Made by a program: the position numbers and the translations under genes
From: Candidatus Nitrosocosmicus franklandus
Lineage (GTDB): Archaea > Thermoproteota > Nitrososphaeria > Nitrososphaerales > Nitrososphaeraceae
Assembly: GCF_900696045.1 (NCBI RefSeq)
Contig: NZ_LR216287.1
Span: forward strand, 1,302,001 to 1,366,000
Length of the DNA: 64,000 nt
Direction of reading: 5' to 3'
The notes under the pieces: generated by a model
The model's database searches: none
The model's input: only the letters and a program-made list of their open reading frames with translations
What the model was told of the DNA's origin: nothing
Shown: positions 38,735 through 44,084 of the stretch, piece after piece
How positions within the stretch are numbered: position 1 is the first letter of the stretch
Layout of the letters: every line of letters starts with the position of its first letter

Positions 38735-40294
38735 TCATCTGGTCTTTAACCAGTCACCTACCTTGGGCCATAATTGTTGATGGGCTCTGGAACTTATACA
38801 AGCTCCAACATGCCCCGAATCAAATTCTATAATTGATTTATCCACACTCCCTATTGCATTATTTATTGCTCTACTTGATTCAGGATCAACTAAATCATCC
38901 TTTTTTGCTATCACATTTAGGAAGGGATGTTTAATTTTTCTCAAATCAATTTTTTTATCTCCATCTATTATCATCTCATTTTTTATCAGAAGATTTTTCT
39001 TGTAGCAATCATCTACAAATTGTCTATATATCTCACCTATTATGGGAGGACTATCATACAGCCATGTTTCTGTTGCAAAAAACTGCATTATGGATTCGAG
39101 GTCTTTAGGCTTGCCACCCTCTAGAAAAAAGTGAGGATATTTATGCAAAATATCTATTGGACTTCTAAGTAAAAAAGAGCTGTTGATAAACTCTCCAGGT
39201 ATATTTCCAAATGTATCCACAATAGTGTCGGCATTAATGCCTTTTGTCCATACACTTAAAAGATTATTATCGATGCTAAAATCACCCGGTGTCGCGAATG
39301 TTACGATATTCTTTATTTTTTCAGGATAAAGCGATGTATACATGAGGGCCAAGTCTCCCCCCCAGCAATAGCCCAATAATGAAACCTTTTCTGAATTAGA
39401 ATGCTTTAAGATGTAATCAACTGCATTGACAAGATAGTTGTCAACGTAATGCCCTATAGTAAGCTCTTTATCAAACGCGCTAGGTGTTCCCCAATCTGTT
39501 GCATATACGTCAAAACCTTGCTTTTGAAAGTTTCTGACTATACTGAAATTTGGAAGCAGATCTAATATGTAATTTCTGTTGATAAAAGCATAGACAATCA
39601 GTAATGGTGTACGAACAGATGCAGTAGTATATTCATCGCGTGTTGTAAGATTCGTGTGTTGTGAGATTCTCCTTTGTTTTTCGATCTCTTCCGCATCTCT
39701 TGCTCGTCCTTCACGATCATCTTGAGGAATATCATAATGAAACAAAGAATATTTGTTTTCAGAATGAATTTTGTGAGAGGGAGTTCTGTACATTATATCC
39801 CTTATCGGCTCGACAAAAGTGTTATTCCAATAAGCATTTAGATTGGACACTTGTTGATATAATAGTCCAGCACCTGTGATCTTTGCAAGGTTGCAATAGC
39901 TTTCGATAAATTCGGAAAGAGAAATTACAAAGGTTTTTTCTCTAAAATTGGTATCAAATTTATCATGTATCTTAGAAAGTATTATTTTTTCAGTCTTCTT
40001 GTAAAGTTCTTGTTGTTGATGATAGTTAAGAAACAACAAATTTCTTTCATCATCCATAACTTCCCTTTTGATTTCCTTTATCTCCTCTCTAGCATCCTTA
40101 AATGGTACGGAAAGCGCATCGATAAATGCACTATTTAATCTCGAATAGAACTCGATCGAAGAAGCAATGGTATCAACATAAGCTTCCAATAATCCAGATT
40201 TATTATGATAATGATCAATATTAGGAGAAACATCAGCATTGGAGTCTATGTCTCTAACTCCTTTGATATGATTTGGATTGGCATTATTATTCAT
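38735..40294 (-). CDS. phaC: Polyhydroxyalkanoate synthase, class III-like PhaC with long N-terminal extension
   Basis: A 519-residue alpha/beta-hydrolase-fold polymerase that would join hydroxyacyl-CoA units into storage polyester. The catalytic part starts near residue 165 with MYRTPSHK and TPLLIVYAFINRNYILDL; the nucleophile is Cys310 in GYCWGG, with Asp467 in KKDDLVD and His495 in SGHVGAC. Class III PhaC is normally about 355 residues and works with PhaE. Here about 165 extra N-terminal residues are mostly helical and charged, and may stand in for PhaE; this is inference. No phaE or phaB gene is in the window. It starts at an ATG. Confidence 0.9.
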   Translation of the reverse strand: MNNNANPNHIKGVRDIDSNADVSPNIDHYHNKSGLLEAYVDTIASSIEFYSRLNSAFIDALSVPFKDAREEIKEIKREVMDDERNLLFLNYHQQQELYKKTEKIILSKIHDKFDTNFREKTFVISLSEFIESYCNLAKITGAGLLYQQVSNLNAYWNNTFVEPIRDIMYRTPSHKIHSENKYSLFHYDIPQDDREGRARDAEEIEKQRRISQHTNLTTRDEYTTASVRTPLLIVYAFINRNYILDLLPNFSIVRNFQKQGFDVYATDWGTPSAFDKELTIGHYVDNYLVNAVDYILKHSNSEKVSLLGYCWGGDLALMYTSLYPEKIKNIVTFATPGDFSIDNNLLSVWTKGINADTIVDTFGNIPGEFINSSFLLRSPIDILHKYPHFFLEGGKPKDLESIMQFFATETWLYDSPPIIGEIYRQFVDDCYKKNLLIKNEMIIDGDKKIDLRKIKHPFLNVIAKKDDLVDPESSRAINNAIGSVDKSIIEFDSGHVGACISSRAHQQLWPKVGDWLKTR

Positions 40295-41099: not shown

Positions 41100-41107
41100 G
41101 ATAAAAA
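41100..41107. repeat. Left target-site duplication of the outer IS (GATAAAAA)
   Basis: The 8 bases GATAAAAA directly before the outer IS recur directly after it at 42455-42462. An 8-bp duplication is the hallmark of IS6-family transposition. Confidence 0.9.
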
Positions 41108-41109
41108 GG

Positions 41110-41117
41110 CTCTGTTC
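41110..41117. repeat. Left target-site duplication of the inner IS (CTCTGTTC)
   Basis: CTCTGTTC at 41110-41117 recurs at 41785-41792, exactly flanking the inner element. The duplicated bases belong to the terminal repeat of the outer element, proving the order of insertion. Confidence 0.9.
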
Positions 41118-41784
41118 GGCTCTGTTCATTTAGCGTCAAGTCTATAGCTTGAAGATGTCCTATCTCTTTTATGAATACTAGAAACAGAACACCTTCAAAA
41201 TATGTGTATTATGGCTTACATTTGTACTTTTCAGGTCTTTCTCTTAGGAAAACATCTGAAAGATTATCATACTGTATCAAACGAAATCATGTCACTATCT
41301 GGAACTGGATTCAAAAGTACCAACCTAAGATTATCAAGACAAAACAAAGAAGGATATGTGAATTCATTGTAGATGAAACATTGCTTAAGGTTGGTTCAGA
41401 ATACACGTGGTTATGGGTTGCAATAGATGCGAAAAGTAAGGAAATTCTCTCACTATCCATTTCTAAGGAGAGAAACATGTTTGTTGCGGAACGGTTTCTG
41501 TCAAACATAGTCAGAGACTATGGAAAGCATCCAGTTTCAACAGATGGTGGTACTTGGTATCCCATGGCTTGTCAATTCCTTAAATTAGAACACCATCTCC
41601 ATTCCTCCTATGAAAAAAACTTGATTGAAAGAACAATGCAGTATATCAAGGACAGAACTGAAAGTTTCGATGATTACTTTCCCTGCAGGCTAAAGAACTG
41701 CAAACTAAAACACGTAAAAAACTGGTTGAACCTGTTTGTCGACTATCACAACAAGGAATTAAAACCTGTTAACTGAACAGAGCC
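41118..41784 (+). mobile_element. Inner (younger) IS6-like element, apparently intact
   Basis: 667 bases with terminal inverted repeats GGCTCTGTTCATTTA (41118-41132) and its near-complement TAACTGAACAGAGCC (41770-41784), matching at 14 of 15 bases. It holds one intact transposase gene. Flanked by the 8-bp duplication CTCTGTTC. It landed in the end of a related, diverged element. Confidence 0.93.
41171..41776 (+). CDS. IS6/IS240-like DDE transposase
   Basis: A 201-residue transposase. The N-terminal helix-turn-helix covers LRKTSERLSYCIKRNHVTIWNWI. The catalytic DDE triad is Asp68 in FIVDETLLKVG, Asp125 in PVSTDGGTWYP and Glu153 in NLIERTMQYIKDR. The small size and the 8-bp target duplication fit the IS6/IS240 group. 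No frameshift is seen, so it may be active. The start ATG is 53 bases inside the left end. Confidence 0.9.
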   Translation: MNTRNRTPSKYVYYGLHLYFSGLSLRKTSERLSYCIKRNHVTIWNWIQKYQPKIIKTKQRRICEFIVDETLLKVGSEYTWLWVAIDAKSKEILSLSISKERNMFVAERFLSNIVRDYGKHPVSTDGGTWYPMACQFLKLEHHLHSSYEKNLIERTMQYIKDRTESFDDYFPCRLKNCKLKHVKNWLNLFVDYHNKELKPVN

Positions 41785-41792
41785 CTCTGTTC
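41785..41792. repeat. Right target-site duplication of the inner IS (CTCTGTTC)
   Basis: Second copy of the 8-base duplication that flanks the inner element, continuing into the body of the outer element. Confidence 0.9.
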
Positions 41793-42401
41793 ACTTAATA
41801 TGTTTTATTTCATTGTTATGATGGTCTACAAAGAGCCGCAGCCAATTCCGTACATGCTTTAACTTGCAATTCTTTATTCTACAAGGAAAGTAGTCATCGA
41901 AACTTTCGGTTCTATCCTTTATGTATTGCATCTTTCTTTCAATCAGACTTTTCTCCAGAGAGGAATGAATGTGATGATCGAGATTTAAGAATCTACAGGC
42001 CATTGGATACCAAGTACCTCATCATCAGTCGAAACTGGATGAATTCCATGAATCTTGACTAAACCTGAAATGAATCTTTCAGCTACAAACATGTTTCTTT
42101 CTTTAGAGATAGACAGTGCGAGAATTTGCCTGTTTTCTGTCTGGTTCAGTTGCAACCCAGAGCCAGACAAACTCTGATCCCACCTTCAACATGGTCTCAT
42201 CTATTATATACTCTAGAACTCTTCTTCTAGTTGACTTAGCTTTTGAGGCCTGTATTTTTGAATCCAATTCCAGATGGAAACGTGATTTCTCTTGTATATC
42301 TGAGACAATCTTTCCGAGGCTTTCCTTAAGGATAGGCCTGAAAAGTACAAATGCAACCCATAATATACATACTTTGAAGGCGTTCTGTTTCTAGTAAGCA
42401 T
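41791..42401 (-). pseudogene. Degraded IS6-like transposase of the outer element
   Basis: Reading on the minus strand from the ATG at 42401, four pieces in different frames align with the intact inner transposase: TRNRTPSKYVYYGLHLYFSG, then VLEYIIDETMLKVGSEFVWL, then LSISKERNMFVAERFISG, then MACRFLNLDHHIHSSLEKS onward to the stop at 41791. At least three frameshifts separate them. The catalytic residues survive in pieces but no full protein can be made. Divergence from the inner copy in the leader and protein shows it is an older, distinct variant. Confidence 0.88.
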
Positions 42402-42454
42402 AAAAGAAATGGAATGCTTTCAAGCTATAGGCTTATCGTTAACTGAACAGAGCC

Positions 42455-42462
42455 GATAAAAA
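42455..42462. repeat. Right target-site duplication of the outer IS (GATAAAAA)
   Basis: Second copy of GATAAAAA, immediately after the outer element's end. Confidence 0.9.
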
Positions 42463-42914
42463 CTACAGTTCTACTTCAATGAGTAAAATGTGTCGATTTT
42501 TGAATGATCCCGATTAACAATATGAAGAAATATCAAAATGAAAGTATGTTCATGCGAACTAAATTACTTTTAACTAGGCCCGTCTATAACATGATCGCGA
42601 ATCGTGATTCAACAGGTTTTTCTCTCTTTTATCGAGTCTACAAAAAAATTACAGCCATTTCCTAGCTGTTTTGACTTGCAATACATTTGCTACTTGGAAG
42701 ATACCTATGTAATTCTCTTATATGTTTAATGTATGAAAACATTATTGCAAGCAAAGTTCTTTTCTAATACGAAAAATAAATTAGATGAGTCTACAATCGA
42801 TTGCTTTGAAATGAATGTTAAGCCTCACTGTCTGTTGTAGAGATAATCTGTCTACCTTGGACCGTATCGGCTATCAAGAAATCTCTAATACTAAACGATT
42901 TCTAGGTTTCGGTT
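42463..42914. other. Intergenic stretch
   Basis: No gene or repeat seen between the IS pair and the protease gene. Confidence 0.5.
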
Positions 42915-44084
42915 TTATTTCCTTCCTTTGTTTAAAAAAGATTTTCTTTCATCCATTGCTTCAATTATATCGGTCTTGCTAACAATTCCTTCTAATATAT
43001 CACCATTGTCACACACAAGGATCTTGTCTTGGTTTTCTTTGATCATGATCGAAAGTGCTTTTTCGGCCGTATCATTTACATTCAGTAACTTTATCTTACT
43101 CTTTGATAACATTACATCCTTAACAAGAACAGTGTTTCTTTCTGGTTCAGGAACATTTAAACAGCTTTTGAGAGTAACTATGCCAACAATTTCGTAATTT
43201 ATTTTTGTTACCGGAAAAGAACTTTTCATGTAAATATTAAAGTAGTTTCTCAATATGTTATTGATCGTAATATCTTCCGGAACAGAAATAACATTAGTTC
43301 GCATCAACTCACCCAATTTAATCTTGGATAATATCTTCATAATATCATATTGATACATATATGATTGCGCTCCATTCTGCAAAAACCATCCTATTAATAT
43401 AATCCACATGCCACTAACAAATGATCCCGAGAGGATTATCAAAATTCCAAGTCCAAAAAAGATATAAGATATTATAATACCAATCCTTACGGCGATTCTT
43501 GTAGATTTGTCATAATTTTTGTTTCTGCTAAAAAGTAATGATCTTAATATTCTACCACCGTCCATTGGAAACGCTGGAACAAGGTTGAAAATCCCTAAAA
43601 TTAGATTTAAAAATGCTGAGTAGAAAAATATTCCGTTGATCATAATTAATGCTGTATCGTAGAAACTAGCTGGAGGCCAAGTGGTAGATGGTAACGAGGT
43701 AATCCACCAAAATACCGCAAATATACCAGATAAGGCCAGGCTTACTGCCGGTCCCGCTATTGCCATTTTAAACTCTTTTTTAAACTCTTTAGGTTCCTCC
43801 TCAATGTCTGAAACCCCTCCAAAAATAAATAGCATAATTTGTCTAACTCGGATTCCATAAGATTTTGCTACAATGGAATGCGATAATTCATGTAGTAATA
43901 CAGATAAAAATAAAATAATAGTGCCCGTAATACTCATTATCCAATAGTTCACCTGATTCATTCCTGGTGAATATTGAGGCATGAATCCATATGCAAGCGT
44001 CCATGCAATTAAAAAAAATACCAGAACAAGTGAAAAGTGTAATCTGATTGGAATCTGGTAAATTTTTCCTACCTGTAATGACAT
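42915..44084 (-). CDS. Site-2-type (M50) membrane metalloprotease with C-terminal CBS domains
   Basis: A 389-residue membrane protein. Zinc ligands are in HELSH (His65, Glu66, His69) and the third-ligand motif NLVPAFPMDGGRILRS contains Asp175. About six membrane helices span residues 12-250. Two CBS motifs follow (about 255-385: RTNVISVPEDITINNILR and KDVMLSKSKIKLLNVNDTAEKAL), which bind adenosyl ligands. Members cut transmembrane substrates to release regulators, with CBS adding metabolic control. Substrate unknown. Confidence 0.92.
   Translation of the reverse strand: MSLQVGKIYQIPIRLHFSLVLVFFLIAWTLAYGFMPQYSPGMNQVNYWIMSITGTIILFLSVLLHELSHSIVAKSYGIRVRQIMLFIFGGVSDIEEEPKEFKKEFKMAIAGPAVSLALSGIFAVFWWITSLPSTTWPPASFYDTALIMINGIFFYSAFLNLILGIFNLVPAFPMDGGRILRSLLFSRNKNYDKSTRIAVRIGIIISYIFFGLGILIILSGSFVSGMWIILIGWFLQNGAQSYMYQYDIMKILSKIKLGELMRTNVISVPEDITINNILRNYFNIYMKSSFPVTKINYEIVGIVTLKSCLNVPEPERNTVLVKDVMLSKSKIKLLNVNDTAEKALSIMIKENQDKILVCDNGDILEGIVSKTDIIEAMDERKSFLNKGRK

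Follow-up and report, generated by a model that had tools for sequence, protein, structure and literature searches.

The window analysed here is a stretch of 64,000 nucleotides, bases 1302001-1366000 of the single-contig 2.84-Mb genome of a Nitrosocosmicus archaeon. Between two of its minus-strand genes (ORFs 42915-44084 and 38735-40294) lie two IS6-type insertion sequences, one inside the other, followed by a decayed piece of a third. In window coordinates the features are as follows.

41100..41107, no strand: outer target duplication, left copy, GATAAAAA (direct reading)
41108..41117, minus strand: first 10 bases of the outer terminal repeat, GGCTCTGTTC (sequence reading and repeat analysis)
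41110..41117, no strand: inner target duplication, left copy, CTCTGTTC, equal to outer bases 3-10 (sequence reading and repeat analysis)
41118..41784, plus strand: inner element of IS6 type (667 bp, subfamily A), its terminal repeats matching at 14/15
41171..41776, plus strand: intact inner transposase ORF, 201 aa, with HTH and DDE (D68, D125, E153)
41785..41792, no strand: inner target duplication, right copy, CTCTGTTC (sequence reading and repeat analysis)
41785..42454, minus strand: rest of the outer subfamily-B element, which would measure 672 bp uninterrupted, transposase gene broken
42020..42021, minus strand: 1-bp deletion junction in the outer transposase, common to copy L024 only
42140..42143, minus strand: 4-bp frameshifting insertion in the outer transposase, common to 17 other copies
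42237..42238, minus strand: 1-bp deletion junction in the outer transposase, common to 14 other copies
42455..42462, no strand: outer target duplication, right copy, GATAAAAA (direct reading)
about 42611..42788, minus strand: third IS6 remnant, decayed, corresponding to the 3' portion of a transposase gene (blastn)

Read from 41100 to 42462, the sequence runs through GATAAAAA, GGCTCTGTTC, the inner element, then CTCTGTTCACTTAA and onwards to TTAACTGAACAGAGCC, which ends at 42454, and finally GATAAAAA again. The outer element (41108-42454) is inverted relative to the inner one and 73% identical to it, its inverted homology and its ends being seen in the repeat analysis, and to the right of the inner element it resumes at its own base 3 with CTCTGTTC. 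The two pieces of the outer element share precisely these 8 bp, which leaves only one parse; at this composition, a given 8-mer would match by chance with a probability of about 3e-5. The earlier note on this DNA had described an intact inner element placed 10 bases inside the end of an inverted, diverged relative, with terminal repeats of 14 of 15 or better in both, and its nesting, coordinates, orientation and two duplications proved exact on re-reading; the repeats match at 14/15 positions in the inner element and at 14/15 (15/16) in the outer one, and the inner reading frame of 201 aa is uninterrupted. The remnant at about 42611-42788 lies 150 bp from the nested pair in the orientation of the outer element, to which it aligns over 186 bases at 64.5% (blastn E 3e-10), and with this third decayed piece the intergenic stretch has probably received at least three insertions.

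We use the name IS6 in the ISfinder sense, which includes the archaeal group, even though Harmer and Hall hold that the archaeal elements may merit a family of their own; ISfinder retains them within IS6. With that usage the IS6-type assignment made in the earlier note holds, as the inner transposase matches PF13610 (DDE_Tnp_IS240) above cut-off at E 2.7e-13 and the NCBIfam model for IS6 transposases, NF033587, at E 2.7e-35, its 121.9 bits falling just under the curated cut-off of 125. D68, D125 and E153 are the likely catalytic residues, the terminal repeats are short, near-perfect (14/15) and begin with GG (GGCTCTGTTC and onwards), and the 8-bp target duplication of the family is present. 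A search of solved structures gave no sequence match to the inner transposase. The strict bacterial IS6/IS26 signature of Harmer and Hall, E-DH---K, is absent around the catalytic E, where the protein instead reads ERTMQYIKDR, and the W---F motif is present as WLNLF. Separate archaeal and bacterial signatures near this residue are given in one survey (PMC6807381), and the residues that follow the E in our element resemble the archaeal signature more closely than the bacterial one. As in the archaeal IS6-type elements covered by that survey (clades a-d) and by a second source on the archaeal group (PMC7986276), there is a single short DDE transposase with an HTH, ends with a GG start and a G at position 7, W---F and K-R motifs and an 8-bp duplication. 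Our element differs from those elements in having M for F in E--F---K-R, and with 667 bp it is slightly shorter than the 700-750 bp quoted for archaeal clades Ai and Aii. Relatives of the transposase occur in all 14 congeners searched, and the named ones belong to Nitrosocosmicus and other Nitrososphaeraceae, which are ammonia-oxidising archaea.

The search for further copies of the inner element suggested in the earlier note returned, for this genome, 64 relatives that are full length and have recognisable ends; they were read with their flanks and fall into at least three subfamilies. Fifteen belong to subfamily A, that of the inner element, and 24 to subfamily B, that of the outer one (two B/C mosaics included), the remainder being subfamily C or more diverged. 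The note had staked its reading on other copies also carrying 8-bp duplications, and 50 of the 64 do, with at most one mismatch. Seven further copies in the genome match the inner element at every one of its 667 bp, and 12 of the 15 subfamily-A copies lie within 2 bp; the eight identical copies indicate that subfamily A spread recently.

In subfamily B, 23 of the 24 copies are frame-broken, 16 of these 23 with a duplication of their own, and L039 is the sole intact one. The outer transposase at our locus is broken by three frameshifts, -1 (42237/42238), +4 (42140-42143) and -1 (42020/42021), which are found again in 14, 17 and 1 of the other copies, respectively, most of them with their own duplications. 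Compared with the core B copies, the outer copy has 0 private nucleotide states; everything it carries, frameshifts included, occurs elsewhere in the subfamily. Two broken copies, L028 and L029, are the same to the base and yet have different duplications and unrelated flanks, and in a sister genome (G001) five B copies have in common a different lesion, a +8 bp frameshift, four of them with their own duplications. The B copies are also mosaic, with 571 incompatible site pairs clustered beyond permutations (P 0.0035), and two copies, L044 and L045, are part B and part C with their duplications intact.

Regarding the order of events, the earlier note had placed the outer insertion first, decay of its transposase next, and the inner insertion last. 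The first and last of these steps stand: the inner insertion is younger than the outer one, because the bases duplicated around the inner element are those of the outer one, and both elements lie between the two copies of the outer duplication. The intermediate step does not, as there is no private lesion and all three frameshifts are common to other copies; since every state of the outer copy occurs in other B copies, no decay after insertion can be demonstrated. Decay before insertion is more likely than after, and the outer copy was probably already broken on arrival. We therefore favour, at a probability of roughly 0.8, two successive copy-in insertions, in which a broken outer B copy moved in trans and a subfamily-A copy came later, guided by ordinary preference and chance. 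A B copy, most likely already frameshifted, would have inserted between the two minus-strand genes, duplicating GATAAAAA, after mobilisation by the transposase of an intact relative; an A copy, predicted to be active, would then have entered the outer terminal repeat and duplicated CTCTGTTC, a choice of site for which only a weak AT-rich palindromic preference and chance would be needed. That broken copies move, most likely in trans, is suggested by L028 and L029, as identical broken copies at unrelated loci mean that broken copies multiply, and on the simplest reading, that a broken copy transposed, the enzyme came from elsewhere. Candidate sources of an enzyme that could act on B ends are the A and C copies that remain intact, together with L039 in subfamily B.

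It counts against this reading that, with B copies being mosaic, the lesions of the outer copy could derive from gene conversion after insertion. Gene conversion could also spread lesions among B copies more generally, so that decay is not datable at the nested locus either way. Alternatively, the outer element might have inserted intact and its transposase decayed in place before the inner one arrived, as the earlier note had it. The nesting does fix the outer element before the inner one, and the likely gene conversion between copies could have imported lesions into an intact outer element; however, the outer copy has no lesion of its own and broken copies evidently multiply as such, and we regard decay in place as unlikely. 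It might also be argued that the frame-broken B copies are alive, their transposase being made either as the product of split ORFs or through ribosomal frameshifting. Broken copies have multiplied in two species, some IS6 members apparently need a frameshift according to PMC7986276, and polymorphism in B is depleted of amino-acid changes, with 34 nonsynonymous to 54 synonymous against a neutral 3.28:1. The lesions, however, are not uniform in position, sign or combination (-1, +4, -1+4, -1+4+2), and the depletion falls mainly on states that A and C have too (19 to 44), being weak in the remaining ones (15 to 10, P 0.05). This is the pattern expected from imported segments, which can explain most of the depletion, and we consequently rejected the low ratio as a sign of selection on the broken gene. 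Living broken copies are accordingly quite improbable to us, and a shade more so is the wider version, in which B elements broken by different lesions in two species still yield a working or regulatory transposase from split frames and the breakage is a tolerated damping and not decay.

The earlier note had also raised a preference for the ends of family members, and the comparison of the 8-bp sites argues against it. The 50 target sites have a weak, symmetric, AT-rich preference of 1.49 bits over 14 symmetric positions, the largest value in 300 random site sets being 0.47 bits. When left out of the training set, the nested site scores at the 98th percentile of window positions and ranks 33 of 50, as an ordinary good target would. 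Under uniform insertion of 64 copies, chance would yield about 0.47 nested insertions, against 1 seen; given a nested hit, the chance of overlapping a terminal repeat is about 7%. Chance and the family's ordinary weak AT-rich palindromic preference thus suffice for the nested site. An attraction of the inner element to its relative's end, whether through sequence preference or a targeted conservative reaction of the IS26 type, could draw on the good score of the CTCTGTTC offset, whose median across 124 IS ends is at the 85th percentile and places it among the better positions of such ends. Against this, the locus is one of 50 sites and the only end-on nesting of this form among the 64 copies and in 15 genomes (this one and 14 congeners), its score is typical of other sites, and the 8-bp duplication marks an ordinary copy-in insertion, whereas the IS26 targeted conservative reaction leaves no such duplication. 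We have rejected targeted end-on insertion on these grounds as very improbable. Matches to the tandem-end pattern in two congeners (G008 and G014) were also discarded as nested elements, as their overlap registers of 9 and 15 bases are those of short tandem repeats. At another locus, L030, bases 440-1078 are a heavily decayed IS6 copy of 66% identity, whose end is about 39 bases from an inserted B copy.

The 1347-bp composite might also have formed elsewhere and arrived as a unit, a kind of movement that has been studied for IS15. This is a precedent for a nested IS6 element: according to PMC7986276, it is IS15-delta nested in another iso-IS6 element (IS6/IS26 family) and has been known since 1984. 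The extreme outer ends are indeed present here and flanked by a clean duplication. No second composite was found, however, in this genome or the 14 congeners, and the inner element interrupts one outer end after its first 10 bases and may thereby impair that end. We see arrival as a unit as improbable. The likeness to IS15 is otherwise close: one IS6 element lies inside another, with its own 8-bp duplication, and the whole is about twice unit length. IS15, however, is bacterial and made of one iso-IS6 inside another, while the archaeal pair is 73% identical and inverted, was hit 10 bases inside the end, and has a broken outer gene. The broken B copies in turn recall the non-autonomous IS6 derivatives (MITEs) described in the same source in that they lack a working transposase and keep both ends, but they are full length and have small frameshifts, where MITEs have lost the interior of the reading frame.

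Because nested IS6 elements have long been known, the Nitrosocosmicus locus is a further instance and by itself of little weight. The genome has more than 60 such elements, and a nesting of this kind among them is an unremarkable product of chance. It does carry a caution, in that the broken state of an outer transposon does not tell when it decayed, since copies that are already broken can be mobilised in trans and can swap segments. The genome has more to offer: the survey PMC6807381 found no experimental data for archaeal IS6 elements, and dozens of natural archaeal insertions are now supplied, together with their 8-bp duplications, a weak palindromic preference in target choice and evidence of recombination among the copies.

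Two further sites are worth recording. A subfamily-A copy, L009 (C1:1862724), and a subfamily-C copy, L073 (C1:2260901), share one insertion position and one duplication, TATAGATC, within two members, 82% identical to each other, of an intergenic repeat. That repeat has seven members in all, and five of them are empty. Its core, in which TATATAAA comes after the palindrome TGTGTCGCATGCGACACA, is present in 9 of 14 congeners too and has the look of a regulatory module; an Rfam scan of the repeat gave no match, and a shared insertion hot spot is possible. Three B copies without duplications, L037 (C1:2519920), L041 (2483852) and L042 (2475503), have flanking 8-mers that match in a ring (CTCTAAGG/AGCAACAT, AGCAACAT/TTCTGATC and TTCTGATC/CTCCAAGG, respectively), an arrangement characteristic of recombination, or of intramolecular transposition, involving the three copies.
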